Virus record (IMG/VR): IMGVR_UViG_3300027836_000012
Location: 1 to 62,229 of that record
Strand: one strand, 5' to 3'
Source: a virus
DNA: 62,229 nt
In this document: in pieces, positions 27,233-62,229 of the stretch
Position numbering within the stretch: position 1 is the first letter of the stretch
How the letters are laid out: each line of letters starts with the position of its first letter
The notes under the pieces: model-generated
Told to the model about the DNA's origin: nothing
Database searches by the model: none
What the model saw: only the letters and a program-made list of their open reading frames with translations
Program-made: the position numbers and the translations under genes

Positions 27233-27234
27233 CA

Positions 27235-27242: not shown

Positions 27243-27247
27243 TTGGC

Positions 27248-27874
27248 ATGAATAATTTTTATTTCCCCAACGGAGTGCATTCATTTCCGTTGGACATTCC
27301 TCGAATAGCAGTTGATGATGTTGAACTGTGGCGGTCCATATACAGTACGCATCGATCAGTTATTGATAAAACAGTAATTAATCATAATGGATTTTCTGGC
27401 GCATGGATTGGGCTGGACATATATCGTGGGCCAAATTACAATATTTCCAAGGATATTTACAACGCCAACTATTATGATTGTTCATCAGTATTTCCTCGGA
27501 TGTTTAAAACTATTTTTGAGAATATCCCTATGGACATTAATTGTATTAGGGTAGCAACTAGTATCAAACCATTCATTCCCCACACAGATTTTAGTGTCCC
27601 AGTTGTCTCATTAAGAACAATTTTGTATGAACAAAACGATATACCTACGTTTTTCTACGTTGACTCTAACGGAAATAAAGTATATCAGCATTTACCACCA
27701 ACTACTAACACTTGGATTTATAATGACAGCACTATGTTACACGGCAGTGACAAATTGCCAAATAAAAGTAAAGTACTTTTTATGTACTACGGCGTTCCAA
27801 ATTTTAATAAATTAAAAGAAATTGCCGATCGCAGTATGTCTTTGTATTCAGAATTTATTATTCCAGTCAGCTAA
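27248..27874 (+). CDS. Putative 2OG-Fe(II) oxygenase (208 aa)
   Basis: FIPHTDFSVPVV (HxD) and a later MLHGSDKLPNKSKVLFMYYG (His plus Arg/Lys) fit the Fe- and 2-oxoglutarate-binding pattern of phage hydroxylases. Would hydroxylate a small molecule, lipid or protein side chain. Next to lipid and acetyltransferase genes. Family call moderate because the distal Arg is not certain. Confidence 0.6.
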   Translation: MNNFYFPNGVHSFPLDIPRIAVDDVELWRSIYSTHRSVIDKTVINHNGFSGAWIGLDIYRGPNYNISKDIYNANYYDCSSVFPRMFKTIFENIPMDINCIRVATSIKPFIPHTDFSVPVVSLRTILYEQNDIPTFFYVDSNGNKVYQHLPPTTNTWIYNDSTMLHGSDKLPNKSKVLFMYYGVPNFNKLKEIADRSMSLYSEFIIPVS

Positions 27875-38727: not shown

Positions 38728-38802
38728 TGGTACCTGGACACGGTTTCGAACCGCGGACCCTCTCCGTGTAAAGGAGACGCTCTACCCCTGAGCTATCCAG
38801 GC
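38728..38802 (-). tRNA. tRNA-Val(UAC)
   Basis: Acceptor GCCTGGA/TCCAGGT, encoded CCA, anticodon arm TCTCC-TTTACAC-GGAGA. Reads GUA. Directly upstream of the Ro60-like unit's promoter. Confidence 0.93.
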
Positions 38803-38807
38803 AATTT

Positions 38808-39044
38808 TTATTTTACTCGTTTCAAATATTCTTTTCCAATTTTACCCGATTGAAGTTCAAGTAATGCAGTAACACTTGGATTTACATATAAAGTTTGGTC
38901 TCCATTGTTTCTGTTTTGACGTTCAAGCTCTCTTGCCCGTGTACTAGCAATAAGTACCATGTCAAAGCGACTTCCTCCTGCATTGATAACACATACCTCA
39001 GTATCTATACTTGTACCTCTGCTTAGACCTTTTGACTTTTTCAT
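38808..39044 (-). CDS. rpoZ: RNA polymerase omega subunit homologue
   Basis: 78 residues. GGSRFDMVLIASTRARELER matches the conserved core of bacterial RpoZ (RFxLVxxAxxRARQ), and TALLELQSGKIG the following helix region. Omega binds the beta' C-terminal region, aids assembly and contacts (p)ppGpp. A phage copy could replace the host omega and alter promoter choice. Has its own perfect sigma70 promoter. Confidence 0.85.
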   Translation of the reverse strand: MKKSKGLSRGTSIDTEVCVINAGGSRFDMVLIASTRARELERQNRNNGDQTLYVNPSVTALLELQSGKIGKEYLKRVK

Positions 39045-39065
39045 AAATTCCTTGTGTAAAATAGT

Positions 39066-39094
39066 ATTATACTTTAATGTTCATCAGTTGTCAA
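39066..39094 (-). promoter_or_regulatory. Sigma70-type promoter of rpoZ
   Basis: Minus-strand TTGACA, 17-nt spacer, TATAAT, both boxes at consensus. Confidence 0.85.
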
Positions 39095-39110
39095 GCTGTA
39101 TATGTTCATC

Positions 39111-40034
39111 TTATAGTTGTGTATATCTTTCTGTTTTACCAGAACCCCAATCACTTAAATGTTTAATTAACTTGTCTCGATTAATATAAACGGCATACCG
39201 TTTATAATTATGGCGAAGCCTAGTATCGCTTGGATTCATTATGAAGTCAACTTTTTTACAACTAATATATTTTGGAAACATTTTTAATTCAGTTCCCCAG
39301 TGCATTCCGTATATAATTGGTTTAACATAGTACTCCCACGAAAAGAGTAGCATTGGGGCAGTACCTGAATTTTTTTCAACTAGTCCGTTTCCTTTTATAT
39401 ACTCAATACTATTAATGTAACTAGTAACAATTGGGTCTGATAAGTACGCTAACGCAAATTCGTTAAATGGTGCTCGCCGATCGATGCAGACAATTTTTCC
39501 AGATCGGGGAACTTGTTTCAATGCTCGCTGACTTGCTATCTCAATAGAAGTCCACGATTCTAAACAATGTGCGTTACCTTGCCAATCAAACATTAGATCA
39601 AAACTTTCGATTCCTTGTAAAAAGTCAGTATCTTCTGGAAGCTGTGCTAGGAACTTTTTCATCATATGATGTTCAGCAGGTATTCCAGTTGTAATTGCTA
39701 ACTGTTCAATTTCTTCTTTAAGTGCATCTGGGTTTATATCTATAACAATGCATTTAAAGTTATATTTCTTTTCAAGAAACTTAATATTTTCATATTCAAC
39801 ATCATTGTATCCGGGATGATACATAAATGCACATTGATATGCTAAACCGAGAGTATGAAATGTATGTAACAAAACTTGACTGTCTAACCCACCGGTAAGA
39901 CTTATTAAGATTTTACCTTCATTGGAAAGTTTAATGCAAGCACGTTCCATTTCTTGTCTGAGTGTGCCTATAGGTCTCTCACAACTAGTATATTCTACAT
40001 AGAATTTATTGTTTTCATCGAGATTATATATCAT
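39111..40034 (-). CDS. PP-loop ATPase (307 aa)
   Basis: ILISLTGGLDSQVLLHTFH near residue 45 is a PP-loop with Thr for the usual first Ser. SFDLMFDWQG and RAPFNEFALAYL resemble asparagine-synthase C-terminal domain motifs. No glutaminase domain. Confidence 0.75.
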   Translation of the reverse strand: MIYNLDENNKFYVEYTSCERPIGTLRQEMERACIKLSNEGKILISLTGGLDSQVLLHTFHTLGLAYQCAFMYHPGYNDVEYENIKFLEKKYNFKCIVIDINPDALKEEIEQLAITTGIPAEHHMMKKFLAQLPEDTDFLQGIESFDLMFDWQGNAHCLESWTSIEIASQRALKQVPRSGKIVCIDRRAPFNEFALAYLSDPIVTSYINSIEYIKGNGLVEKNSGTAPMLLFSWEYYVKPIIYGMHWGTELKMFPKYISCKKVDFIMNPSDTRLRHNYKRYAVYINRDKLIKHLSDWGSGKTERYTQL

Positions 40035-40049
40035 AGTTATATTTAAAAT

Positions 40050-40126
40050 TGGTCGGAGTACAAGGATTCGAACCTTGGACCCCCTGGTCCCAAACCAGGT
40101 GCGCTACCAGACTGCGCTACACTCCG
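40050..40126 (-). tRNA. tRNA-Pro(UGG)
   Basis: Acceptor CGGAGTG/TACTCCG, CCA encoded, anticodon arm CCTGG-TTTGGGA-CCAGG. Reads CCA. Confidence 0.93.
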
Positions 40127-40137
40127 ATTATTCTTAC

Positions 40138-40166
40138 ATTTTATTGTATTAACAATTTGTTGTCAA
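40138..40166 (-). promoter_or_regulatory. Sigma70-type promoter of tRNA-Pro
   Basis: Minus-strand TTGACA, 17-nt spacer, TAAAAT, ending 12 nt before the tRNA. Confidence 0.7.
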
Positions 40167-41213
40167 CCATTTAGAAAAACTATTATTGGGATTATAAAAA
40201 TTCATTAGTGGACAATCAAACAACTTATTAAAATTTTCATCTAATGCAGACGCAGATTTAATGCCGTAATACAGTGTGCTAGATGGATGCTTTAATTTAT
40301 TAACAAAATAATCATTGTCTCCAGTGAAGTCGGCTATGAATTTCTTCTGTTCTGATTTTAAAGTACTAAAGTTTTCTAAGTTCGGTTCATTAGTGCATGA
40401 CCACTCTTGGAACTTTTTACCGCAATAAAACGGTTCTACTTTTGCGTCTTTGTGTATACGCAAATAAATCACAAGCCCACGTTGTTGCCATTTGAAATTA
40501 AATCCATGCCACCAAACAAGGTCGTACATATTCTTAATTGGCCTAGGCGATCGAGTAATAGTTGTGATGTACATATCAAACCAGCATCTAATACTTTTTT
40601 CACTTATTCCTTTAAAAGAAAATAGTTCTCTAAGATTTTCTAAATTAAATGGTCTTTCTAGAAACCCTTGTGGCATAGTTCGATATATTACTGTAGCTAA
40701 AGGATTGCCCATAATTTGGTCGCCGCCTTCACCTGAATATACAATGCCATCTAATTTAGAAAAAGTAAGTAACAGAGTTGCTTGCTCGCTAGGTAATATC
40801 TTAAATTTTCCTCGAATATATGTTTCGTAAAAATTTTTATATTCTTTTACACTGTCATAGTTTAAAATAATTGTAACTCGATCTAACGGCCTTCCTGTTC
40901 TAAGTAACGATACAACCGTTGCTGTACTGTCGATACCTCCTGACCACATAATGTATATGGGTTGATCTAAGTCTAGAAGCTCATTGGCATGAAACAAACA
41001 TGCATCAGCAAATGTCACAGGTTCAACGCACTCGGGCAGTATATGCCTATCTAGTAAAGTTTCGTTAAACGGAAAGGTGATAAGTCCAGTTCGATCAACT
41101 AGCCATCCATCACCGTCAATCTTATAAATTTCTTTGAATAGATTAACATCTTCTTGCGGAAATTCTAAAGTTGGGTCTTTTAATTCTTGACTATATGCGT
41201 ATATAAGTTTCAT
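40149..41213 (-). CDS. PP-loop ATPase (354 aa)
   Basis: IYIMWSGGIDSTATVVSLL near residue 89 is the PP-loop; IVYSGEGGDQIMG matches the second ATP-site motif of asparagine synthase-like enzymes (cf. GxGADExFxGY). Similar in layout to the gene at 29675. ATGA overlap with the gene upstream. Confidence 0.82.
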   Translation of the reverse strand: MKLIYAYSQELKDPTLEFPQEDVNLFKEIYKIDGDGWLVDRTGLITFPFNETLLDRHILPECVEPVTFADACLFHANELLDLDQPIYIMWSGGIDSTATVVSLLRTGRPLDRVTIILNYDSVKEYKNFYETYIRGKFKILPSEQATLLLTFSKLDGIVYSGEGGDQIMGNPLATVIYRTMPQGFLERPFNLENLRELFSFKGISEKSIRCWFDMYITTITRSPRPIKNMYDLVWWHGFNFKWQQRGLVIYLRIHKDAKVEPFYCGKKFQEWSCTNEPNLENFSTLKSEQKKFIADFTGDNDYFVNKLKHPSSTLYYGIKSASALDENFNKLFDCPLMNFYNPNNSFSKWLTTNC

Positions 41214-41908
41214 TGCGAACCTGATCTAAGTTCAATTTCTAATTCGTATCTAACGAGATGAGAAATAGTACCGGCATCTGTGGTAGCGTTAATACGCTTT
41301 ACATATTTTTCCCATACTGCATTTAATCTCGACACAATTAATTGAGTAGACATTACTTTCATTTGTAAGTCTGATCGAGCTTCTTCAACAGTTATTTCTT
41401 GGATGTCTGCCCATTCAATTATTGCCAAAGAGTTTTTGTTTTCTAATTCTTTAGCCATAAACGGAATAAAGATTTCGTCTCCGCAATAAGTTTTTGCTCG
41501 ACAAAGATATCTTTCTATCTTTTGTTCTAAAGCAACAATACCGGCTGCTCTAGCATTGGCTAGTTTTCTTTTTTCTAAGAAACCCACTGTAGGTGATTCA
41601 ATTGGAATTACTGCAAACATGTTGTCACCTGGAATTTTATCCACTGACTTTGCAACATTACTTTCGCTAGTTATCAAGGCCTGGTCACTCCTTCGCAAAA
41701 GTGTAACATTAAGATCAATTGATTTACGATAATTTAAGTTGTTAAACACTTCGGTGTTTTGAAGAAATACATTCATTGCAGAACTATTACCAATGCCCGC
41801 GGCCACGGCATGTGCTACCGATATGCTGTTAACATTAGTTAATACTCCAAATGTTTCTTGATCAACTATCAGTTGATAGTCTTGTTTTTTTGCAAATGTA
41901 TCTAGCAT
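41210..41908 (-). CDS. Hypothetical protein (232 aa)
   Basis: Helical, no recognised motif. Coupled by ATGA to the downstream PP-loop gene, so likely a partner or substrate protein. A conserved-looking GDEIFIPFMAKELEN stretch in the centre. Confidence 0.55.
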   Translation of the reverse strand: MLDTFAKKQDYQLIVDQETFGVLTNVNSISVAHAVAAGIGNSSAMNVFLQNTEVFNNLNYRKSIDLNVTLLRRSDQALITSESNVAKSVDKIPGDNMFAVIPIESPTVGFLEKRKLANARAAGIVALEQKIERYLCRAKTYCGDEIFIPFMAKELENKNSLAIIEWADIQEITVEEARSDLQMKVMSTQLIVSRLNAVWEKYVKRINATTDAGTISHLVRYELEIELRSGSQ

Positions 41909-41922
41909 ATTGCCTCAATAAA

Positions 41923-41996
41923 TGGAGCGGAGTGAGAGAATCGAACTCTCGACCGAAGATTGGAAATCTGCTGTTTTACCATTAAACTAACCCCGC
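41923..41996 (-). tRNA. tRNA-Gly(UCC)
   Basis: Acceptor GCGGGGT/ACTCCGC, CCA encoded, anticodon loop TTTCCAA; one C-T mismatch in the anticodon stem. Reads GGA. Confidence 0.9.
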
Positions 41997-42006
41997 ATAC
42001 TTTAGT

Positions 42007-42188
42007 AAAGTACATTTATGGCTTTTGCTAAACGCTGGTGCCCTGTCCTTCCTACCTATCTTATAGATAAGTTAAATGTACTTTATTAAAACAAACTAAG
42101 GCGTATTAAGTATATGGGCTATGCCTATCACAGTGACTGGGATGCCAAACCTGATCTTTTTAGGGATTTAAGTTTGTTTTAATAAAGT
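42007..42188 (-). repeat. Two nested/adjacent long hairpins in a tRNA spacer
   Basis: Arm pair 1: AAAGTACATTTA (42007-42018) with its inverse at 42073-42084. Arm pair 2: ACTTTATTAAAACAAACTAA (42080-42099) with a near-perfect inverse at 42168-42188. The two helices share five bases, so they may exclude each other. Loops of about 55-68 nt. No coding frame. Confidence 0.6.
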
Positions 42189-42389
42189 GTCTAGCTACCT
42201 ACACCACATAGGCCCTAAACTGGGTGGTTACCCCGTCCACGTTCTTTTCCATTTAGACGGGATAGCGTCCCCGCCTTTGTGATTTCTCAAGTCGCCCATA
42301 TAGCGGGCCTTGCGGCAGATCCAATGCGCCGTGCTCTTATGGTATTGGCAATTACCCACTTTAATTAACAGTACAAAGTGTAACCCGGG
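42189..42389 (-). ncRNA. Possible structured non-coding RNA
   Basis: No gene seen. GC is higher than in the flanks and the minus strand has several short helices (GGGAC/GTCCC-like pieces, GCGGGGACGCTATCCCGTC, GGTAACCACCC). Not recognised as tmRNA, RNase P RNA or group I intron. Could be part of the hairpin-bounded element next to it. Confidence 0.35.
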
Positions 42390-42527
42390 TTATCTTGTAA
42401 ATAATCGTTTAAATCTTATCCAATAATATTTAATGCTTCGAGTTTGTATCCACGAAAGATCAAATAGGATTGTAGTTTCACGCGGTACGTTGCCATACGC
42501 TTTATCGAGAGTTTCTTTGATCTTCAT
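42390..42527 (-). CDS. Possible small protein (45 aa)
   Basis: ATG 42527 with GGAGAT upstream; reads MKIKETLDKAYGNVPRETT and a basic, aromatic tail ending before TAA 42390. Placed directly after the 236-aa gene. Function unknown. Confidence 0.5.
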   Translation of the reverse strand: MKIKETLDKAYGNVPRETTILFDLSWIQTRSIKYYWIRFKRLFTR

Positions 42528-42541
42528 GCTATCTCCAATTG

Positions 42542-43252
42542 CTACTCAACAATATTTTCTTTAATCTTTTTTAAGATTATACTTCTCATCCTCGACTCTT
42601 GAAATCTGCGGTACCTATCAGCTAAGGGAATCCAAGGTTCCCAACTAGTCGATGTTGCACAGGATACAGAGTACCTACGTAGTTCTGGATCCATTTTAAA
42701 TCTCACAAACTTTACATGCTCATCGGTGTTAAACGTAAAATAGGCTAACGGCTCATCTTTTTCAATTGTTAGTTCTTTAATACCCTGCCCCATCATAAAC
42801 TCGATGTTTACTGCACGGAACCATTTTCCAATATTGTATCTTCCTGGCACAATGTTAGCTTGACTTGCCCACTGTGGCGTTTCCAACCAAGGAGAAGTCA
42901 TTGTAACAGAAATATCTGCATCAGAAAAGAAAATTGGTGTAATACCATACTCTAGTAAGAACCTATCTTTGATATTAGGTTGTCTTACAGTTTGTGCAGT
43001 CATACCATTTTTACTAGGAGTTACATTACCCTGCTCATCAAACAGGAAAGTGGATGCTAGTGGATTTTTAAATTCTAATGTATTCTTAGTTAGATTTTTA
43101 AATGCCGGGCAGTAAAACATACTGTCCCATTTGTCCACAGTTGTTTTTTGTTCTATCTGTTTGTCAAATACACTTATTGGATCGGCATACAACATGTTCC
43201 AATCAATATTTCCAAATTCGTAATTTGGTGCCCAGTATACAGTTATTGACAT
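42542..43252 (-). CDS. Conserved phage-type hypothetical protein (236 aa)
   Basis: MSITVYWAPNYEFGNIDW opening, beta-rich centre (GITPIFFSDADISVTMTSPW) and a basic helix at the end. Similar proteins are frequent in T4-like marine phages; function unknown. Lies between tRNA-Thr and the small 45-aa gene. Confidence 0.65.
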   Translation of the reverse strand: MSITVYWAPNYEFGNIDWNMLYADPISVFDKQIEQKTTVDKWDSMFYCPAFKNLTKNTLEFKNPLASTFLFDEQGNVTPSKNGMTAQTVRQPNIKDRFLLEYGITPIFFSDADISVTMTSPWLETPQWASQANIVPGRYNIGKWFRAVNIEFMMGQGIKELTIEKDEPLAYFTFNTDEHVKFVRFKMDPELRRYSVSCATSTSWEPWIPLADRYRRFQESRMRSIILKKIKENIVE

Positions 43253-43267
43253 AAAGACTCTTTAAAA

Positions 43268-43342
43268 TGGTGCCCCCACTATGATTTGAACACAGGACCT
43301 GCCGCTTACAAGGCGGCTGCTCTACCACTGAGCTATAAGGGC
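43268..43342 (-). tRNA. tRNA-Thr(UGU)
   Basis: Acceptor GCCCTTA/TGGGGGC, CCA encoded, anticodon arm CCGCC-TTGTAAG-CGGCA. Reads ACA. Confidence 0.92.
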
Positions 43343-43394
43343 AAATTTATTACACACTACTTATCACACCATACATTGTGTGTAATGGTGTTTG

Positions 43395-43470
43395 TGGTGG
43401 AGGTGACAAGGATCGAACTTGCTACATCCTGCTTGCAAAGCAGGCGCTCTCCCAAATGAGCTACACCCCC
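43395..43470 (-). tRNA. tRNA-Ala(UGC)
   Basis: Acceptor GGGGGTG/CACCTCC, CCA encoded, anticodon arm CCTGC-TTTGCAA-GCAGG. Confidence 0.93.
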
Positions 43471-43475
43471 AAAAC

Positions 43476-43551
43476 TGGTTGCGGGGCTTGGATTTGAACC
43501 AAGGACGGCAAAGGCTTATGAGACCTCGCTGGTGACCGGACCCTCCCCGCG
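43476..43551 (-). tRNA. Initiator tRNA-fMet(CAU)
   Basis: Acceptor starts CGCGGGG and ends CCCCGCA A CCA, leaving the C1-A72 mismatch that marks bacterial initiator tRNAs. Anticodon loop CTCATAA. The three G-C pairs usual at the bottom of the initiator anticodon stem are only partly kept (GAGGT/GCCTT), and the D arm is short. Pairs functionally with the IF-1 gene at 16935. Confidence 0.85.
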
Positions 43552-43559
43552 GCAACTAT

Positions 43560-43736
43560 TTATTCTGGTGTTTTACTTTTACTTTTACTATTGGTTCTAC
43601 GTGCAGATTCTGCAGATAGTTCTGCTTCAATCATTGCACGTTTCCATGCATTACGATCTTCTATATTGCGAAATCCTGTGGATGCTAACATCATTTTAGT
43701 TAGCCCACTCATTTTATACGCTGAAGTTGGTTTCAT
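43560..43736 (-). CDS. Small phage protein (58 aa)
   Basis: ATG 43736 with AAAGGAAA upstream; MKPTSAYKMSGLTKMML opening and a basic tail rich in Ser and Lys. A small protein with this opening is common in T4-like phages. Divergent from the SGNH gene. Function unknown. Confidence 0.65.
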   Translation of the reverse strand: MKPTSAYKMSGLTKMMLASTGFRNIEDRNAWKRAMIEAELSAESARRTNSKSKSKTPE

Positions 43737-43747
43737 TTTTTTTCCTT

Positions 43748-43755
43748 TATAAATA
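43748..43755 (+). promoter_or_regulatory. Late promoter motif TATAAATA
   Basis: Plus-strand TATAAATA, then TTAG and ATG 43760. Confidence 0.7.
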
Positions 43756-43759
43756 TTAG

Positions 43760-44542
43760 ATGCAATTTTTTAATCGACGAATACACGATCGAAGGAACTG
43801 TTATTTTAACTGGTGTCCTTCTGATAATCTGGAAGCATATAAAGAAGAAGGACAATACGGCCCTAATCCTTATACACCTACCTCATTTGGTTATCAATTT
43901 AACAGTTACGGATTTAGATGTGACGAATTTAATTTACCTAGTCCTTTACCGATACTGTTTCTTGGATGTAGCTTTACTGAAGGTACAGGAGTACCTAAGG
44001 AAGCAACCTGGGCTTATCAAATACTTGAAAAGATTCGAGCAAAAACAGGCAAGGATATACCATACTGGAACTTTGCAGTGGGTGCCGCTGGCATAGATAC
44101 TCAAGCATCATTTTTATCTGAGCACGGTGATGCTATAAGACCCCGTCATATAATCTTTATGCGGCCGCCTTGGACTAGAAGACAAATTGTCAAACCGTCC
44201 GGCGAAATAGTTGACTGGATGCCAGGACACCACGGGCACGAAAGTTTTGAGCCGTTATTAGTAGACGAACAAAACGCTCTATTTCAAGCTGACCGTAGTT
44301 TATGTATTCTAGACTTATTAGCAGAGAAATACAACGCCTACATTCATTATTGTTCTTGGTCGCTCAAAGTTGAAGATTCTAAAATAGATCCTTTTATTAA
44401 TAAGTATCGACGTTTTAGAAAAATAAATTTTAAATTTCCTGACAAAGTTGATAATGGGAGGGACAACATGCACCCCGGACCTCAAACTCATAAAATAGTT
44501 GCAGATCAAATGTGGGAACACGATCTCAAACATTACTTTTAA
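43760..44542 (+). CDS. SGNH-hydrolase-like protein (260 aa)
   Basis: ILFLGCSFTEGTGVP near residues 65-79 is the GDSL block I with Cys in place of Asp before the Ser71 nucleophile. GAAGIDTQ and a C-terminal DNMHPGPQTH (His block V) complete the pattern. Related in design to the partial gene at the left edge. Alone on the plus strand, with a late promoter at its start. Confidence 0.75.
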   Translation: MQFFNRRIHDRRNCYFNWCPSDNLEAYKEEGQYGPNPYTPTSFGYQFNSYGFRCDEFNLPSPLPILFLGCSFTEGTGVPKEATWAYQILEKIRAKTGKDIPYWNFAVGAAGIDTQASFLSEHGDAIRPRHIIFMRPPWTRRQIVKPSGEIVDWMPGHHGHESFEPLLVDEQNALFQADRSLCILDLLAEKYNAYIHYCSWSLKVEDSKIDPFINKYRRFRKINFKFPDKVDNGRDNMHPGPQTHKIVADQMWEHDLKHYF

Positions 44543-44543
44543 T

Positions 44544-44619
44544 TGGCTCCCCAGCGTGGGATCGAACCACGGACACCTTGATTAACAGTCAAGTGCAACT
44601 ACCGCTGTGCTACTGGGGA
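44544..44619 (-). tRNA. tRNA-Asn(GUU)
   Basis: Acceptor TCCCCAG/CTGGGGA, CCA encoded, anticodon arm CTTGA-CTGTTAA-TCAAG. Confidence 0.93.
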
Positions 44620-44625
44620 ATAATA

Positions 44626-44778
44626 CTAACTTGGAATAATATGTGGAATGTAGGGAACTGCTCTTGGTCCACCATACAGTTGTTCAAAAAGTTTTTTAGC
44701 CTCTTGCGGTGTATCCGCATAGATTCTTTTCTTTTCTTCACCTTGTGGTGTTCTAACAGTTGTTTCATACATTGGCAT
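44626..44778 (-). CDS. Small protein (50 aa)
   Basis: Start at ATG 44778 (MPMYETTVRTPQGEEKK) with AAAGGAA upstream; the longer frame would read through tRNA-Ser. Helix AKKLFEQLYGG then a proline-rich end. Unknown function. Confidence 0.6.
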   Translation of the reverse strand: MPMYETTVRTPQGEEKKRIYADTPQEAKKLFEQLYGGPRAVPYIPHIIPS

Positions 44779-44794
44779 ATTGCGTTCCTTTATG

Positions 44795-44880
44795 TGGCGG
44801 AAGACCGGGGACTCGAACCCCGAAACCGTTGCCGATCGACGGCTTAGCAAGCCGCTCCAATACCATTATGGGAGTCTTCC
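44795..44880 (-). tRNA. tRNA-Ser(GCU)
   Basis: Acceptor GGAAGAC/GTCTTCC, CCA encoded, anticodon arm GCGGC-TTGCTAA-GCCGT and a long class II variable arm. Confidence 0.92.
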
Positions 44881-44888
44881 TTTAACTA

Positions 44889-44973
44889 TGGTGCGAGTAG
44901 CCGGGGTCGAACCGGCATGCCTTTCGACGAGAGATTTTAAGTCTCTTGAGTATACCAATTTCTCCATACTCGC
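44889..44973 (-). tRNA. tRNA-Leu(UAA)
   Basis: Acceptor GCGAGTA/TACTCGC, CCA encoded, anticodon arm AGAGA-CTTAAAA-TCTCT, long variable arm. Confidence 0.93.
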
Positions 44974-44978
44974 ATGTT

Positions 44979-45068
44979 TGGTGGAAGCGGTGAGATTCGA
45001 ACTCACGGACCCTTTCGAGCCGACAGTTTTCAAGACTGTTGCAATAAGCCGGACTCTGCCACGCTTCC
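44979..45068 (-). tRNA. tRNA-Ser(UGA)
   Basis: Acceptor GGAAGCG/CGCTTCC, CCA encoded, anticodon arm ACAGT-CTTGAAA-ACTGT, long variable arm. Confidence 0.93.
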
Positions 45069-45075
45069 TTATTAC

Positions 45076-45164
45076 TGGTGGAGATGATAGGATTCGAACC
45101 TATTGCGTTTCTTAAGTACCGGATTTACAGTCCGGGGCCACTCCACCATCGTAGCCGCATCTCC
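45076..45164 (-). tRNA. tRNA-Tyr(GUA)
   Basis: Acceptor GGAGATG/CATCTCC, CCA encoded, anticodon arm CCGGA-CTGTAAA-TCCGG, bacterial-type long variable arm. Confidence 0.93.
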
Positions 45165-45170
45165 ATATAT

Positions 45171-45254
45171 TGGTGCCCAGGGAGAGACTCGAACTCTCAA
45201 TCCTTGCGGCAGTGGCTTCTAAGACCACCGTGTATACCATTCCACCACCTGGGC
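45171..45254 (-). tRNA. tRNA-Leu(UAG)
   Basis: Acceptor GCCCAGG/CCTGGGC, CCA encoded, anticodon arm GTGGT-CTTAGAA-GCCAC, long variable arm. Confidence 0.93.
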
Positions 45255-45263
45255 AATAAACTT

Positions 45264-45410
45264 TCCATTGTTAAGTGTTATGTGCAAATTCTGAGATAGT
45301 CGCTAAACATACTCAATGCCGATGCAGTTATTTCAGGATCAGTCGCCGGCAGCTTTGACCCGAATAGTGTAAGCGTCCCTACACGATACCTTATAACACT
45401 TAACAATGGA
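45264..45410 (-). repeat. Hairpin-bounded spacer element (18-bp inverted repeat)
   Basis: Perfect 18-nt inverted repeat TCCATTGTTAAGTGTTAT (45264-45281) and its inverse (45393-45410), enclosing about 110 nt with no gene. The right arm includes the CCA end of tRNA-Glu. May guide processing or be an independent RNA. Confidence 0.65.
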
Positions 45411-45481
45411 GACGCTACGGGGAATCGAACCCCGCTTGCCAGGATGAAAACCTAGTGTCCTAACCGATAGACGATAGCGTC
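45407..45481 (-). tRNA. tRNA-Glu(UUC)
   Basis: Acceptor GACGCTA/TAGCGTC, CCA encoded, anticodon arm CTAGG-TTTTCAT-CCTGG. Its 3' end is inside the 18-bp inverted repeat. Confidence 0.92.
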
Positions 45482-45541
45482 ATTGCTAAATTAAATTTTT
45501 AAAGAACATTTTATGCAACTGTTTTATCAGCGCATGTATGT

Positions 45542-45570
45542 ATTATATAGTATACCACATTGTTTGTCAA
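45542..45570 (-). promoter_or_regulatory. Sigma70-type promoter within the tRNA array
   Basis: Minus-strand TTGACA, 17-nt spacer, TATAAT; would drive tRNA-Glu and genes beyond. Confidence 0.8.
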
Positions 45571-45599
45571 CAACATTTTGAACTATTTTTAAACTATTT

Positions 45600-45673
45600 T
45601 GGTGCTCTTAGAAAGAATCGAACTTTCATTACCTCCATACCAAAGAGGCGGTCTACCATTTACCTATAAGAGC
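45600..45673 (-). tRNA. tRNA-Thr(GGU)
   Basis: Acceptor GCTCTTA/TAAGAGC, CCA encoded, anticodon arm CCTCT-TTGGTAT-GGAGG. Confidence 0.9.
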
Positions 45674-45674
45674 A

Positions 45675-45749
45675 TGGCCGGGCTTGAGAGGATCGAACTC
45701 CCACCGTCGGTTTCGAAGACCGAAATGATATCCATTTCACCAAAGCCCG
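45675..45749 (-). tRNA. tRNA-Arg(UCG)
   Basis: Acceptor CGGGCTT/AAGCCCG, CCA encoded, anticodon arm TCGGT-CTTCGAA-ACCGA. One nt from tRNA-Thr(GGU). Confidence 0.92.
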
Positions 45750-45755
45750 AATGTG

Positions 45756-45832
45756 TGGTACCCCGTGTCTGATTCGAACAGACAGCCAACTCCTTTTGAG
45801 AGAATCCGCACTACCAATTAGCGTAACGGGGC
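45756..45832 (-). tRNA. tRNA with CAA anticodon (Leu by code, class I shape)
   Basis: Acceptor GCCCCGT/ACGGGGT, CCA encoded, perfect T arm. Best anticodon arm ATTCT-CTCAAAA-GGAGT gives CAA (UUG codon, Leu). The variable region is only about five nt, whereas Leu tRNAs normally have a long arm, so the amino acid is uncertain. Confidence 0.7.
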
Positions 45833-45839
45833 ATAAATA
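45832..45839 (+). promoter_or_regulatory. Late promoter motif CATAAATA
   Basis: Plus-strand CATAAATA followed by TTTTT and GTG 45845. Confidence 0.55.
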
Positions 45840-45844
45840 TTTTT

Positions 45845-46009
45845 GTGAAGACTTACGAACACATAACTCCGCAAGGATTATATTTTCATCTTTGTTTGTA
45901 CGAAGGTGTATGTTGCGTTATGGTACAAGATGTGTACGATAACACTTACTTTGAAATGCAATACTTCACTAATGTTAACAAGGCATTGCGCTTTATTAAC
46001 AATCTTTAA
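45845..46009 (+). CDS. Small protein, GTG start (54 aa)
   Basis: Frame KTYEHITPQGLYFHLCLYEG, then a Tyr/Phe-rich middle and NKALRFINNL end at TAA 46009. Start taken as GTG 45845 because a late promoter motif ends 5 nt before it. Plus-strand gene between minus-strand tRNAs. Function unknown. Confidence 0.55.
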   Translation: MKTYEHITPQGLYFHLCLYEGVCCVMVQDVYDNTYFEMQYFTNVNKALRFINNL

Positions 46010-46010
46010 T

Positions 46011-46102
46011 TGGTACCAGCGGAGGGGATCGAACCCTCTCAAGAACGCTAATCTGGCGCTAAAAGGTTTATAAAACCTCTCTGACTTCCAAGTCTCGCTG
46101 GC
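46011..46102 (-). tRNA. tRNA-Ile(UAU) with long variable arm
   Basis: Acceptor GCCAGCG/CGCTGGT, CCA encoded, anticodon arm GAGGT-TTTATAA-ACCTT (reads AUA). Unusual: the D arm is very short (ACT-TGGA-AGT) and the variable region forms a hairpin (GCGC...GCGT), as in class II tRNAs. Amino acid identity therefore not certain. Confidence 0.75.
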
Positions 46103-46110
46103 AATTTAAT

Positions 46111-46184
46111 TGGGTTGAACCGGGGAATCGAACCCTCTCTAACTGTTTCACAGACAGTTGTGCGACCACTACACTAGGAACAAC
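46111..46184 (-). tRNA. tRNA-His(GUG)
   Basis: Anticodon arm ACTGT-CTGTGAA-ACAGT. The extra 5' G (46184) faces discriminator C, the His identity pair. Acceptor has two adjacent T-T mismatches. CCA encoded. Confidence 0.88.
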
Positions 46185-46190
46185 ATTGAT

Positions 46191-46311
46191 TGGCCCCGCC
46201 CCGTGGATTCGAACCACGATCTCGTCCTTGACATGGAATGTTGTATATTGCTGACTGTATCCTTGACAGGATAACCTTTATATACGTGTGCTACCATTAC
46301 ACCAAAGCGGG
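46191..46311 (-). tRNA. tRNA-Asp(GUC) interrupted by a 47-nt insert
   Basis: Removing 46237-46283 leaves a perfect tRNA: acceptor CCCGCTT/GGGCGGG, D stem GTG/CAC, anticodon arm CGTCC-ATGTCAA-GGACG, T stem CGTGG/CCACG, CCA encoded. The insert splits the 5' side of the anticodon stem and itself contains an anticodon-arm-like hairpin (TATCC TGTCAA GGATA). It may be an unusual intron or an inactivating insertion. A separate intact tRNA-Asp lies at 47415. Confidence 0.8.
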
Positions 46312-46318
46312 AAAAGTT

Positions 46319-46393
46319 TGGTAGTTCCTACAAGGTTTGAACTTGTGACCTTCACGATGTCAACGTACTGCTCTACCGCTGAGCTAAGGAACT
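46319..46393 (-). tRNA. tRNA-Val(GAC)
   Basis: Acceptor AGTTCCT/AGGAACT, CCA encoded, anticodon loop TTGACAT. Confidence 0.9.
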
Positions 46394-46404
46394 AAAGATT
46401 GAAT

Positions 46405-46596
46405 TTATTTTCTATGTTCTAATATCTCTAGAACACGGTTAATAAGATTGCTGCCAGTGTGCGTGAATACACATGGCAGGAGAGAATGAATAAGAAAAGC
46501 TAATGCAGCCATAAAACTATAGCATGATAGTTTTACAGCTACTTTTAGATGCGATAGGTAATTAGAACCTATCTCTTTTAAATGATTACACTGCAT
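46405..46596 (-). CDS. Small membrane protein, DUF6356-like
   Basis: Start at ATG 46596 (MQCNHLKEIGSNYLSH), overlapping the panD stop by 11 nt. A hydrophobic segment (SFMAALAFLIHSLLPCVF) then THTGSNLI, matching a family of small phage/proteobacterial membrane proteins with a HAFxPFxFxxTGS signature. Function unknown. Confidence 0.7.
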   Translation of the reverse strand: MQCNHLKEIGSNYLSHLKVAVKLSCYSFMAALAFLIHSLLPCVFTHTGSNLINRVLEILEHRK

Positions 46597-46957
46597 CAAA
46601 TTTAATATCACCTGTCATTACTTCAGTGACGTGATTTTGATTATCAACAAATACAGTTCGATGTGTTGCAGTTTCACCGGGTTGAAGTGTAACCATACTT
46701 AGTACCACTACAAGATCGTTTGGTTGAAATAATCTACTAGGTGGCCCGTTGAGAATTATCTCACCATCCTTGCCGGGAATAACATAGGTTTCCCAATGAG
46801 CGGCATTACTTAGATTATTTACATGAACATATTCAAATGCTTCAATGCCTGCTGCCTTCATTAGTTTTTCATCGATAGTAATACTACCGATATAATTTAA
46901 ATTGGCATCAGTGACTGCAACTCGATGTAGTTTTGCTTTAATAAATGATTTTAACAT
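46586..46957 (-). CDS. panD: Aspartate 1-decarboxylase (PanD)
   Basis: 123 residues, usual length. KLHRVAVTDANLNYIGSITID carries the self-cleavage site Gly24-Ser25 that forms the pyruvoyl cofactor; ILNGPPSRLFQPNDLVVVLS matches the later conserved part. Converts aspartate to beta-alanine for pantothenate and coenzyme A. An unusual phage gene placed inside a tRNA array; fits with the acyl-lipid genes elsewhere. Own promoter at 46979. Confidence 0.93.
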   Translation of the reverse strand: MLKSFIKAKLHRVAVTDANLNYIGSITIDEKLMKAAGIEAFEYVHVNNLSNAAHWETYVIPGKDGEIILNGPPSRLFQPNDLVVVLSMVTLQPGETATHRTVFVDNQNHVTEVMTGDIKFDAV

Positions 46958-46978
46958 AGTGTAGACCTTCCTTACATT

Positions 46979-47007
46979 TATATAGTGTTAGTATACAACG
47001 CTGTCAA
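46979..47007 (-). promoter_or_regulatory. Sigma70-type promoter of panD
   Basis: Minus-strand TTGACA, 17-nt spacer, TATATA, 22 nt upstream of ATG 46957. Confidence 0.75.
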
Positions 47008-47018
47008 CAAATCTTGAA

Positions 47019-47092
47019 TGGAGCGGGTAGCGAGAATCGAACTCGCGAATAAACCTTGGCAAGGTTTCAGGTTACCATTACATCATACCCGC
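47019..47092 (-). tRNA. tRNA-Gly(GCC)
   Basis: Acceptor GCGGGTA/TACCCGC, CCA encoded, anticodon arm AAACC-TTGCCAA-GGTTT. Confidence 0.93.
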
Positions 47093-47097
47093 ATTAT

Positions 47098-47171
47098 TGG
47101 CGTACCTCCAGGGACTCGAACCCCGACGAACAGTTTTGGAGACTGTCATGCTGCCATTACATTAGAGATAC
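47098..47171 (-). tRNA. tRNA-Trp(CCA)
   Basis: Acceptor GTATCTC/GAGGTAC, CCA encoded, anticodon arm ACAGT-CTCCAAA-ACTGT. Confidence 0.93.
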
Positions 47172-47376
47172 ATTATTCTGTGTAAGCTACAACTTCCACG
47201 TCGCCCTTACTTGAGTTGCACACCCTGTCATTGCGTTTTGATATCTGCGTAGTTGCAATTCTACTCAGCGGTTCGAGTCCATGTTACGTCTTTGGAATCC
47301 TTCTTAACGGTTGGCCGCCCCCGGCCCCTATAACGCCGAGCCAGCGACACAGATAACGTTCTGTGCTAACGGGATT
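47172..47376 (-). other. Non-coding spacer of 205 nt
   Basis: No gene seen. GC-rich centre (GGCCGCCCCCGGCC on the plus strand) and short inverted repeats near the ends (TCTGTGT/ACACAGA), so it may fold like the other hairpin-bounded spacers. Confidence 0.4.
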
Positions 47377-47413
47377 TGGCGCACCGTAGGGGACTTGAAC
47401 CCCTGGCGCAAAA
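47377..47413 (-). pseudogene. tRNA 3'-end fragment (T arm, acceptor strand, CCA)
   Basis: Minus strand AGGGG-TTCAAGT-CCCCT, then ACGGTGC-G-CCA, but no 5' half: tRNA-Asp begins immediately on the other side. A remnant of a displaced tRNA or a recombination scar. Confidence 0.75.
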
Positions 47414-47414
47414 T

Positions 47415-47489
47415 TGGCGGTCTCAACGAGAATCGAACTCGTCCCTACGGCGTGACAGGCCATTATACTAACCGATATACTATGAGACC
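47415..47489 (-). tRNA. tRNA-Asp(GUC)
   Basis: Acceptor GGTCTCA/TGAGACC, CCA encoded, anticodon arm ATGGC-CTGTCAC-GCCGT. Its 5' end overlaps the stop of the HNH gene by 10 nt. Confidence 0.93.
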
Positions 47490-47863
47490 AATTTTTTCTT
47501 ACTCATTCGCAACCTACCTTCTTCACTGGCATTTTTAACTCCCCAGGTGTCAGTCTGAGTATGACAGTTAGGACATAAGTAACGATAGTTTTCAATCACA
47601 TCATTGGAATTATTACCATCAATATGATCAATTTGTAAAACGATGGGGTTGCCGTTCCACTCGCTTATACCACAACAAGAACACTTATATGGCGTGTTGC
47701 GTTTAAAGTAAGTTTTTGCATTGTTCTTTGTGTAATTGCCAGAAGCAATAGCTTCATTTAGTCTATGTTCAATCTGACAGGGACTACAACAATACTTTCC
47801 AGACTTTTGCGATGGCATCCATCTAAATTCTTTTTCGCAGTTAATACAGTTAGCAATTGGCAT
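47480..47863 (-). CDS. HNH endonuclease with zinc fingers
   Basis: 127 residues: N-terminal CINCEKEF and CCSPCQIEH zinc site, then CSCCGISEWNG, LQIDHIDGNNSND and YLCPNCHTQTDT, the full HNH nuclease core with zinc-binding CxxC pairs. Typical free-standing homing endonuclease, here inserted against tRNA-Asp and a tRNA fragment, which may mark its target. Confidence 0.88.
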   Translation of the reverse strand: MPIANCINCEKEFRWMPSQKSGKYCCSPCQIEHRLNEAIASGNYTKNNAKTYFKRNTPYKCSCCGISEWNGNPIVLQIDHIDGNNSNDVIENYRYLCPNCHTQTDTWGVKNASEEGRLRMSKKKLVS

Positions 47864-47940
47864 AGGTTAGTTCTCCTAACTTTATTTAGCCAATCTAACC
47901 AACTGATCTAACGGTGCATAAATTTACTTATGAAAACAAT

Positions 47941-48014
47941 TGGTACCCAGAACAGGAATTGAACCTGTAATGACCGGTTATCAGCCGATTGTTATACCAT
48001 TTAACTATCCGGGT
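47941..48014 (-). tRNA. tRNA-Ile(GAU)
   Basis: Acceptor ACCCGGA/TCTGGGT, CCA encoded, anticodon loop CTGATAA. Confidence 0.92.
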
Positions 48015-48019
48015 ATATT

Positions 48020-48094
48020 TGGTGGTAATGGAAAGAGTCGAACTTTCACTGGACACCGTATGAAGGTGGTGCACTACCGTTATGCTACATTACC
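48020..48094 (-). tRNA. tRNA with CAU anticodon (elongator Met, or Ile2)
   Basis: Acceptor GGTAATG/CATTACC is fully paired, so not an initiator; anticodon arm CCACC-TTCATAC-GGTGT, CCA encoded. Met is the simplest reading; lysidine-modified Ile(AUA) cannot be excluded, but a UAU tRNA exists at 46011. Confidence 0.88.
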
Positions 48095-48220
48095 ATAGAA
48101 AAACACACTCGGCTCTCCTTACAACCTTGTTCCTGTCAATTCAGGATGAAACTGGATGAACCCAGTGGCTCCCCTTGGTTGTTTGTATCTGTCAATTCAG
48201 ATTGAAAGTATGTTTATCTA
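48095..48220 (-). repeat. Spacer with twin hairpins sharing one loop
   Basis: Two hairpins, CCTG-TCAATT-CAGG and ATCTG-TCAATT-CAGAT, have the same loop but different stems. Imperfect inverted arms near the ends (CCATAGA.../...TCTATGG) would close the spacer. No coding frame. Confidence 0.45.
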
Positions 48221-48294
48221 TGGTAGGGGCACAGAGAATCGAACTCTGATTAATAGGTTAAAAGCCTACTACTTTGCCGTTAAGTTATACCCCC
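48221..48294 (-). tRNA. tRNA-Lys(UUU)
   Basis: Acceptor GGGGGTA/TGCCCCT, CCA encoded, anticodon arm GTAGG-CTTTTAA-CCTAT. Confidence 0.9.
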
Positions 48295-48297
48295 ATA

Positions 48298-48373
48298 TGG
48301 TCCACAGCGTCAGATTTGAACTGACACCTCATCGGTTAAGAGCCGAGTACGCTACCGTTAACGCCAGCTGTGG
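48298..48373 (-). tRNA. tRNA-Lys(CUU)
   Basis: Acceptor CCACAGC/GCTGTGG, CCA encoded, anticodon loop CTCTTAA between CTCGG-type stem arms. Confidence 0.9.
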
Positions 48374-48459
48374 ATGGATCGTAAATATTTTCTTTTACGT
48401 GCCATCCAGGACCATACGGGGGTCTAGGATGACACTACAGTTTACCTGTACGTTTCATG

Positions 48460-48588
48460 TCATTCTCCTTTGTTGATATTTCTCTTTTGGGCTTGGCGTT
48501 CTGATTTCCAAAACACTCGTTTCCAATCTTTCAAATGCTTCCACCATTGTGGAGGCGCTGTTAAGTTACCTTTTTTGACATTTGCCAT
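48460..48588 (-). CDS. Small basic protein (42 aa)
   Basis: ATG 48588: MANVKKGNLTAPPQWWKHLK, then RVFWKSERQAQKR. The WWKHLxxWKRxFWKxER pattern belongs to a small conserved phage/bacterial protein family of unknown function. Ends at TGA 48460. Confidence 0.65.
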   Translation of the reverse strand: MANVKKGNLTAPPQWWKHLKDWKRVFWKSERQAQKRNINKGE

Positions 48589-48606
48589 TTGAGTTCCTTA
48601 CTATAA

Positions 48607-48670
48607 AACAGGATACATTTACTTTTCAAGTTCAAATTGAATTTTTTAAGTTTGCTGTTAGTATCCTAAA
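48607..48670 (-). repeat. Structural RNA element, copy 4
   Basis: Minus strand AGGATAC...GTATCCT helix; TAACAGCAAA follows the 5' arm and CTGTTTTA extends the 3' arm. Begins 3 nt after the CCA of the tRNA at 48673. Confidence 0.65.
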
Positions 48671-48672
48671 CT

Positions 48673-48746
48673 TGGTGCTCCATCGAGGAATCGAACCCCA
48701 ATTGCCGGACTACAAAACCGGTGTCTTACCATTAAACGAAAAGAGC
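48673..48746 (-). tRNA. tRNA-Thr(UGU), second copy (anticodon tentative)
   Basis: Acceptor GCTCTTT/ATGGAGC with one T-T mismatch, CCA encoded. Anticodon arm CCGGT-TTTGTAG-TCCGG gives UGU if a T-T pair closes the loop; the surrounding arm resembles bacterial tRNA-Gln, so identity is not certain. Confidence 0.75.
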
Positions 48747-48752
48747 AAAATC

Positions 48753-48828
48753 TGGTCTCGCATGTAGGACTCGAACCTACGATGTCTCCGCCCCAAACGG
48801 AGTGGTATAGCCACTAACCGAATGCGAG
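48753..48828 (-). tRNA. tRNA-Pro(UGG), second copy
   Basis: Acceptor CTCGCAT/ATGCGAG, CCA encoded, anticodon arm CTCCG-TTTGGGG-CGGAG. Confidence 0.9.
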
Positions 48829-48835
48829 ATAAAAT

Positions 48836-48911
48836 TGGTGGACCAGTGGAGGATCGAACTCCAATCTGAGCATTGCAAGTGCCCTGTGTACCCCAGTATC
48901 ACTACTAGCCC
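48836..48911 (-). tRNA. tRNA-Ala(UGC), second copy
   Basis: Acceptor GGGCTAG/CTGGTCC, CCA encoded, anticodon arm GGGCA-CTTGCAA-TGCTC. Confidence 0.88.
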
Positions 48912-48922
48912 ATTAAATTGTT

Positions 48923-48997
48923 TGGTACCGCTGTATGGAATCGAACCACAATTCCCACGTTCGTAGCGTAGTGTATTATCCATTATACTACAGCGAT
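48923..48997 (-). tRNA. tRNA-Arg(ACG)
   Basis: Acceptor ATCGCTG/CAGCGGT, CCA encoded, anticodon arm CTACG-CTACGAA-CGTGG. Confidence 0.9.
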
Positions 48998-49002
48998 ATA
49001 TT

Positions 49003-49078
49003 TGGTGCTACCTCCAGGAATCGAACCTGGTTCAACGGTTCTTCAGACCGCCGCTATGACCACATCAGCTAAAGTAGC
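49003..49078 (-). tRNA. tRNA-Phe(GAA)
   Basis: Acceptor GCTACTT/AGGTAGC, CCA encoded, anticodon loop CTGAAGA. Confidence 0.92.
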
Positions 49079-49084
49079 AAATAA

Positions 49085-49149
49085 AACAGGATGTATTTTA
49101 CTGGTTAGATTAAAAGTCTAGTGTATAAAATTTGCTGTTAACATCCTTA
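49085..49149 (-). repeat. Structural RNA element, copy 5
   Basis: Minus strand AGGATGT...ACATCCT helix; TAACAGCAAATTTTA follows the 5' arm and CTGTTTTA extends the 3' arm. Begins 4 nt after the CCA of tRNA-Arg(UCU). Confidence 0.65.
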
Positions 49150-49152
49150 ACT

Positions 49153-49227
49153 TGGTCTCGCCTGCAGGAATCGAACCCACATTCGTAGGGTAGAAGCCTA
49201 CTGTATTATCCATTATACTAAGGCGAG
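49153..49227 (-). tRNA. tRNA-Arg(UCU)
   Basis: Acceptor CTCGCCT/AGGCGAG, CCA encoded, anticodon arm GTAGG-CTTCTAC-CCTAC. Confidence 0.92.
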
Positions 49228-49233
49228 ATAATT

Positions 49234-49307
49234 TGGCACGGGAACTAGGGCTCGAACCTAGAATGACAGAGTCAAAGTCTGTAGTGTTACCATTACACTA
49301 TTCCCGA
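49234..49307 (-). tRNA. tRNA-Gln(UUG)
   Basis: Anticodon arm ACAGA-CTTTGAC-TCTGT, CCA encoded. The first acceptor pair is U-U, in line with the weak 1-72 pair of bacterial tRNA-Gln. Confidence 0.9.
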
Positions 49308-49316
49308 ATAATTGAA

Positions 49317-49512
49317 TTTGTAAGTAGTTCCACCATCATTATTGGAACCATTCACCCGTGTAATAAACTCGAGCGGGACTCGGTACGTCACTTGGGATTC
49401 ATCCAGCGTTCTCGCCTGTTGAGATTTTCAGGGAATCGAACCCTCACCTTCTACTAGCTCGGTCCTTCGAAGAAACCTTACTAGCGTGATTTCACTTGCT
49501 GACACTTACAAA
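49317..49512 (-). repeat. Hairpin-bounded spacer with a tRNA-like T arm
   Basis: Inverted 9-mers TTTGTAAGT (49317-49325) and ACTTACAAA (49504-49512) enclose the spacer. Inside, the minus strand has AGGG-TTCGATT-CCCT, a tRNA T-arm look-alike, but no matching acceptor stem or clear anticodon arm. No coding frame. Confidence 0.45.
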
Positions 49513-49515
49513 ACT

Positions 49516-49590
49516 TGGTACTCCGAACGGGTTTCGATCCCGCTTCTCCAACTTGAAAGGCTGGCGTCCTAGCCACTAGACGACCGGAGT
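49516..49590 (-). tRNA. tRNA-Glu(UUC), second copy
   Basis: Acceptor ACTCCGG/TCGGAGT, CCA encoded, anticodon arm CCAGC-CTTTCAA-GTTGG. T loop is ATCGAAA instead of TTCGAAA, an unusual change at position 54. Confidence 0.88.
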
Positions 49591-49596
49591 ATGATT

Positions 49597-49674
49597 TGGA
49601 GTAGCGGGTGAGATTTGAACTCACGGTTTTACGGATTTGCAATCCATTGCAATGGGCCTCTCTGCCACCGCTAC
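49597..49674 (-). tRNA. tRNA-Cys(GCA)
   Basis: Acceptor GTAGCGG/CCGCTAC, CCA encoded, anticodon arm ATGGA-TTGCAAA-TCCGT. Confidence 0.9.
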
Positions 49675-49680
49675 ATAAAC

Positions 49681-49755
49681 TGGCGCCGCTGATGGGAATC
49701 GAACCCACCTAAGTCTCGCAGACAACGAGTCACCCTCCCAGAGAGCTACAACGGC
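49681..49755 (-). tRNA. tRNA-Asp(GUC)-like, third GUC tRNA
   Basis: Acceptor GCCGTTG/CAGCGGC, CCA encoded. Anticodon loop TTGTCTG gives GUC but with U at position 37, where tRNAs nearly always have a purine, and a four-pair stem. First tRNA of the array, nearest the tandem promoters. Identity tentative. Confidence 0.75.
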
Positions 49756-61971: not shown

Positions 61972-61983
61972 AATGGCAAAAAG

Positions 61984-62002
61984 AAACCCGCCGAAGCGGG
62001 TT
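61984..62002 (-). terminator. Rho-independent terminator of the tmRNA
   Basis: Minus-strand AACCCGC-TTCG-GCGGGTT followed by a T-rich run; about 50 nt after the tag stop codon. Confidence 0.82.
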
Positions 62003-62229
62003 CTGCTATTTTTGGTGACAAGGTATAACTACCTCGCAAGTGCAGTTTCTTAGGCTGCTAGTTCGAAACGCTCAGCGTTTGCGGCGCTAGCCACGAATGC
62101 TGGAACTTCGAAAAACTTGAATGTATTTGCGTTTGCATTTACGAGTTTTGCTTGATTTAGAGTCATCGCCTACTCAGTTGCCGTCTCTATTATCTCACCC
62201 TGTCGAAACCATGGCAGGCCCATCAGAAA
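62003..62229 (-). ncRNA. ssrA: tmRNA coding half, probably permuted two-piece type (cut by right edge)
   Basis: Minus strand from 62221: GGGCCTG, then CCATGGTTTCGACAGGG, matching the conserved tmRNA 5' end. The tag frame begins at a GCA (62136 or 62130), includes NTFKFFEVPAF and ANAERFELAA, and ends at TAA 62050; the LAA end is the usual protease signal. GCAG...CTGC around the stop matches tmRNA helix 5. A terminator follows at once and no T arm or CCA lies downstream, so the 3' half should lie upstream, beyond the window, as in permuted tmRNAs. Confidence 0.82.

Follow-up and report, generated by a model that had tools for sequence, protein, structure and literature searches.

A permuted two-piece tmRNA gene at the edge of a phage contig, and probable protein genes in the intervening segments of its relatives

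Introduction

Two-piece tmRNAs of phages are already known, and Sharkady and Williams are said to have recognised a third lineage of two-piece tmRNAs. A survey of 97,179 tmRNA sequences, in which RF04321 is the merged permuted family, included 79 sequences from phages and reported 10 residues as the commonest length of the tag (PMC11915505). Besides LAGLIDADG homing endonuclease genes located within group I introns, the same survey described one tRNA-Ala nested in an intervening sequence; neither ORF nor open reading frame occurs as a term in its main text. A second study counted 53 two-piece tmRNAs in the phage genomes of a cultured-phage database, 50 of which came from marine or aquatic samples (PMC9004378).

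The locus analysed here may be compared with several of these systems. The betaproteobacterial two-piece tmRNA (RF01850) and the merged permuted family (RF04321) share the gene order with the relatives of our locus, as well as the tRNA-like domain, the resume-codon context and, behind the coding half, the CCUUGuuACcaAA element and a terminator. In contrast, the present tmRNA is phage-borne and has a 28-residue tag, and its relatives appear to carry genes in the intervening segment (IVS). Melnitz, a methylophage, and other aquatic phages likewise bear a permuted tmRNA on a large phage, whereas the two-piece ssrA of Melnitz clusters with those of alphaproteobacteria and is associated with a glutamine riboswitch, and the available text describes no protein gene in the IVS (PMC9004378). 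The homing endonuclease genes in introns and the nested tRNA-Ala (PMC11915505) are also genes within a removed part of a tmRNA precursor, but they are restricted to homing endonucleases or a single tRNA, while the IVSs of phages seem to hold many unrelated small protein genes. As far as shown by the literature searched, with most subscription journals lying outside it, this class of IVS protein genes has no earlier report.

Complete permuted tmRNAs could also be found by covariance model (CM) or ARAGORN in the Xanthomonas jumbo phage XacN1 and in Pseudomonas Samunavirus phages (SM1 and UF_RH6), in whose records they are not annotated as tmRNA. Unlike the tmRNA studied here, they have short tags (ANANTFDYALAA, ANDTSFDVRLAA), the latter being that of the two P. 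aeruginosa phages UF_RH6 (L413) and SM1 (L414). By the test used, the IVS of XacN1 contains no nested gene. In XacN1 (AP018399, L007 1274-3080, about 37.2-39 kb), the permuted tmRNA lies approximately 1 kb from a GOLLD RNA, and the record contains two copies of it (at 37,231 and 356,026), presumably in terminal repeats.

The Coding Half at the Contig End

The window, that is, the whole stretch of DNA analysed, is an entire virus contig of 62,229 b and represents a linear fragment. The minus strand of its final 250 bases carries the coding half of a two-piece tmRNA gene in circularly permuted form (Table 1). A cmscan search of the whole window revealed a match to model positions 79-213 of RF04321 (tmRNA_permuted), with E 5e-9 and 59.5 bits, which passes the gathering score of 47 and is truncated 5' by the contig end. 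When the window end was scanned, RF01850 (beta_tmRNA) matched positions 61982-62229 with 53.1 bits (E 1.2e-15), below a gathering score of 84, the 5' part of the model being absent at the contig end; this alignment also extends over the CCTTGTCACCAAA element and the hairpin of the terminator. The tmRNA signature, the ELAA tag, the hairpin and the terminator that the initial annotation had placed at this edge were all located, with a match well above chance, and the covariance-model search that it had suggested yields a score beyond the RF04321 threshold. The span it had given (62003-62229) needs a slight correction to 62221-61984, and positions 62229-62222 belong to the IVS rather than to the mature tmRNA.

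Table 1. Coordinates of the tmRNA elements and of the ClpP-like gene in the window
Feature	Position	Strand	Basis
Coding half (mRNA-like piece), G+1 at 62221 to terminator	61984-62221	-	RF04321, RF01850
IVS, final 8 nt TTTCTGAT, before G+1	62222-62229	-	Complete relatives, TGAT/GGGCC boundary
5' acceptor strand GGGCCTG; pairs with ..CAGGTCC-A-CCA in L283 and other relatives	62215-62221	-	Sequence; pairing in relatives
tmRNA signature GGTTTCGACAGGG, D-loop region	62198-62210	-	Sequence, CM alignment
Helix GAGT-AGGCGATG-ACTC; arms 62175-62172 / 62163-62160	62160-62175	-	Compensatory change relative to relatives
Tag frame: resume codon GCA (62136-62134) and 27 codons, ANANTFKFFEVPAFVASAANAERFELAA	62053-62136	-	CM alignment at resume codon; long-tag class in relatives
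Tag stop codon TAA	62050-62052	-	Sequence
Short hairpin GAGGTA-GTTA-TACCTT, then GTCACCAAA as in the beta-type model	about 62020-62035	-	RF01850 alignment
Intrinsic terminator GAACCCGCTTCGGCGGGTTT and CTTTTT	61984-62003	-	Directly after coding half, ~50 nt past tag
ClpP-like protease gene, 196 aa	10733-11323	-	PF00574, E 1.5e-78

The helix downstream of the signature reads CGGT..ACCG or CAGT..ACTG in relatives, so its difference in the window is compensatory. Folding of the window's tmRNA RNA alone was unremarkable (z -1.7), which is unsurprising because only half of a two-piece RNA is present.

Part of this stretch could be read as an ordinary small protein gene, MTLNQAKLVNANANTFKFFEVPAFVASAANAERFELAA (the frame MTLNQ...), since an ATG at 62166 shares the reading frame of the tag and has an in-frame counterpart in several relatives. 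However, this ATG is located in the loop of the compensated helix and has no properly spaced Shine-Dalgarno sequence, its flanks contain the tmRNA signature and the acceptor strand, and the RF04321 and RF01850 alignments run through the entire stretch; such a gene is barely conceivable. It is also very improbable that the locus is a decayed tmRNA fragment without function, such as a relic of integration or recombination. Although tmRNA genes are common integration sites and the visible part is only half a gene, the gene breaks off where the contig does, the helix has been kept intact by compensatory change, the 28-codon tag is open and ends in ELAA, the terminator is in place, and the genes of close relatives are intact.

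Permuted Gene Order in Relatives

As the contig stops 8 nt into the IVS, the acceptor half falls outside the window, and evidence on the gene order comes from relatives. The coding halves most similar to that of the window are found in L234 (93.3% identity), L242 (91.7%), L230 (88.3%) and L283 (87.9%), all of which have a T arm and CCA about 53-474 nt upstream of the coding half, supporting the permuted order that had been proposed from the window alone. Among those scanned, L234, L242, L283 and L161 align to RF04321 over its full length. The 278-kb contig L161 is also syntenic with the window: its giant ORF in this neighbourhood is 68% identical to the window's 2292-aa ORF, which converges on the coding half and ends beside it at 61944. 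In L161, the complete permuted tmRNA has the same convergent orientation, lies 2.4 kb from the giant ORF, and covers both full models (RF04321, 132 bits over 1-213; RF01850, 126 bits over 1-331). The alpha type suggested in the initial annotation should be replaced by a beta-like one, given the RF01850 match in the window and the score of L161. Across the related loci, 247 permuted tmRNAs were called by ARAGORN, and all seven acceptor-stem pairs are formed in 77 of 82 ORF-bearing genes and in 62 of 81 others among all relatives.

A standard one-piece tmRNA whose 3' half is missing or sits at a greater distance downstream would also contain a signature and a tag frame, and ARAGORN calls standard genes in 18 related loci. 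On the other hand, the one-piece model RF00023 had no match near 62 kb in the cmscan of the window, a terminator follows the tag after ~50 nt with the convergent 2292-aa ORF close behind it, and in the nearest relatives the gene is permuted, the acceptor half preceding the coding half, which makes a one-piece gene extremely unlikely. The possibility that the acceptor half is found at the opposite contig end by circular wrap-around was also considered and rejected, ARAGORN having called no tmRNA across the joined ends. Taken together, the window almost certainly breaks off within a two-piece tmRNA gene of permuted order and beta kind that belongs to a large phage.

If so, the minus strand past 62229 would contain the rest of the IVS and, further upstream, the acceptor half with its T arm, CAGGTCC or a similar strand, and CCA. 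A single transcript would presumably be cut after CCA and before G+1 by tRNA-processing enzymes, and the two resulting RNAs would be held together through the acceptor and adjoining stems. Stalled ribosomes would then be rescued with the help of host SmpB and alanyl-tRNA synthetase, and the 28-residue tag would be appended. We infer these steps of processing, charging and rescue, like the subsequent degradation by host Clp or phage ClpP, from the gene structure.

Several other features of these contigs were recorded. Between 18215 and 49755 of the window (minus strand, mostly 38728-49755), ARAGORN detected 37 tRNA genes representing a nearly full amino-acid set; this 62-kb fragment probably comes from a far larger phage genome. 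Genes for a Bax1-I family protein (6997-7692), two fatty acid desaturase-like proteins (23186-24001 and 26465-27280) and a DctP-type solute-binding protein (28688-29620), all on the minus strand, are unusual genes for a phage to carry. A neighbouring 481-aa protein gave no match in cultured phages. In L234, L161, L241, L411 and L378, a gene for a cold-shock domain protein (Pfam CSD, E 6e-30 in L234) is located immediately upstream of the permuted tmRNA, sometimes followed by another hydrophobic mini-ORF of ~22 aa in the tmRNA leader.

Tags and the Rescue Route

The related loci encode 123 different tags among the 247 permuted genes, most of which fall into two length classes (10-14 and 21-33 aa). 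The tag of the window had been described as long (26-28 residues) and rich in Phe; it has 28 residues, five of them Phe, and belongs to the long class. Long tags mostly begin with A(N/K/T)xxTF(K/E/D)(F/Y) and finish like a short tag (e.g., ..AANAERFELAA), and judged by their sequences they resemble short tags that have received an extra N-terminal module. A long tag is also found in Mesoplasma florum (Mollicutes), where it is recognised by Lon. That tag is similar in having about 27 residues and an extra N-terminal part, whereas most long phage tags keep a canonical end of the ALAA/ELAA type. In ssrA tags, such an end is associated with recognition by a ClpXP-type protease, which by analogy argues for the same kind of recognition of the phage tags; the C-terminal ELAA of the window tag would be a canonical-type degron for ClpXP-like proteases. 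The two modes of tag length raise the testable question of how the extra 14-20 residues affect tagged proteins. Further unusual phage tags, such as DNNYMSFATSYALAA and ANTSDSAANNIVAFSRSTVAA, were observed in L041, L063, L078, L031, L054 and L083.

The ClpP gene noted earlier in the same window is real (Table 1), and phage ClpP is a possible consumer of tagged proteins. A self-contained rescue and degradation route of the phage's own, which had been proposed on this basis, is not supported: SmpB was found in none of 16 records (the window and 15 related ones, including jumbo-phage contigs), many of which are fragments. Host SmpB is thus presumed, and the route would at best be shared with the host.

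Probable Protein Genes in the Intervening Segment

In an unselected sample of phage permuted tmRNAs, a nested frame of at least 12 aa was present in the IVS of 32 of 112 loci (29%). These nested genes share a layout in which a Shine-Dalgarno sequence comes right after CCA (CCACCA-TAAGGAG-ATTAGT-ATG) and the stop is usually the UGA of UGAU/GGGCC, 1 nt before the coding half, the 5' end of which is GGGCC. A directed scan for this layout detected it in at least 120 viral contigs, and the nested proteins form at least 49 clusters (15-104 aa), besides larger ones of up to 133 aa. In contrast to this viral occurrence, a scan of 84,980 species genomes of bacteria and archaea, which covers beta-like acceptor sequences only, found no instance. 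The single cellular match to a relaxed pattern (L409) was rejected as a one-piece tmRNA 3' end beside a recombinase gene with a chance ATG.

Among the close relatives of the window, L242 has a 474-nt segment with two frames, the second being the longer, and L283 has a nested 35-aa peptide of membrane type, whereas the IVSs of L234 and L230 have no nested gene. Among the matches listed, 14 relatives have the same IVS end as the window (TTTCTGAT), and 12 of them contain a nested gene, in a sample enriched by the directed scan; when only unselected loci are counted, four have one (all of one family) and two do not. The chance that the window's own IVS holds a nested gene is placed slightly below even. 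In L412 (4383-4456, minus strand), a tRNA-Arg(ccg) occupies the IVS of a permuted tmRNA gene instead of a protein gene. Another contig, L119 (end of IMGVR_UViG_3300020160_000908), breaks at CTGATGGGCC, which is practically the break point of the window itself; variable segments between conserved tmRNA halves may cause assemblies to break at these sites.

The open frames could also be chance or structural spacers without any gene. This reading would fit their absence from most segments of the unselected sample, the constraint that a stem imposes on the segment ends and hence on the last codons, and a pN/pS of 0.94 in a 68-aa family that has few differences. However, 58 of 63 non-redundant frames are open to the segment end, compared with 7.7 expected when the segment end is fixed and no length filter is applied, or 17 when the expectation is conditioned on 12 codons or more. 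For the 49 clusters, dinucleotide shuffles gave an expectation of 5.1 open frames and 0.17 stops exactly at UGAU/G, whereas 47 and 23, respectively, were observed. Nested frames are mostly under purifying selection, with pN/pS values of 0.07-0.4 in most families or comparisons, including 0.33 for a hydrophobic peptide of 24 aa that recurs in 13 sequences (MNDDLT..IGVVVVLVVFALVLL), 0.18 in a 122-aa family (nine distinct sequences) and 0.10 in a 104-aa pair; higher values were obtained for the MKYTALC family (0.58) and for one pair (0.76). Moreover, one nested product is a thioredoxin (PF00085, E 4e-21). The spacer explanation is accordingly considered very improbable, and protein genes nested in the IVS very probably exist as a class.

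Another nested product matched PGDYG (E 3e-6). A PHROGs search of the nested proteins returned the thioredoxin and one weak match only, and tblastn found no match in cultured phages for the 104-aa protein. The tmRNA halves flanking the nested genes are intact, aligning to RF04321 over its full length with 59-139 bits.

Reassortment of Segments and the Closing Stem

Comparisons among loci indicated that IVS segments and tmRNA halves reassort. Between L081 and L126, the coding half shows 100% identity over 200 nt but the nested proteins are unrelated, whereas L081 and L346 have segments with 98% identity and coding halves with only 64%. Homologous exchange via the conserved flanks would be the simplest cause of this pattern.

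The two ends of a segment also match each other better than they match ends from other phages. For ORF-bearing segments, end-to-end complementarity was -8.3 kcal/mol with their own ends versus -5.7 kcal/mol with those of other phages (z -11), and the corresponding values for ORF-less segments were -10.6 and -5.4 kcal/mol (z -14.5). The Shine-Dalgarno sequence of the nested genes sits in this covarying stem of the IVS ends; in 55 of 61 minimum-energy folds it pairs with the final 24 nt of the segment. Such pairing may account for the endings ..VSL, ..VFL or ..VLL of unrelated nested proteins, and it leads to the hypothesis that ribosome access and stem formation should compete.

Because the IVS of many relatives holds a small exchangeable protein gene, the pre-tmRNA looks like an mRNA as well. 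As a tentative model, to which we give rather less than an even chance, the tmRNA gene would be a dual-use cassette site in which the Shine-Dalgarno sequence is locked in the closing stem and translation of the cargo is coupled to tmRNA maturation. The excised piece, which would end 1 nt past its UGA, might in turn serve as a substrate for its parent tmRNA.

Implications

The IVS of phage two-piece tmRNAs has until now been treated as a spacer. If it encodes proteins, the precursor of a well-studied non-coding RNA would double as an mRNA in many phages, and a set of small phage genes has likely been missed by annotation. The tmRNA locus would then also be a site at which small accessory genes are swapped between conserved flanks. 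Moreover, the stem over the Shine-Dalgarno sequence makes a coupling of ribosome rescue to phage protein expression directly testable.
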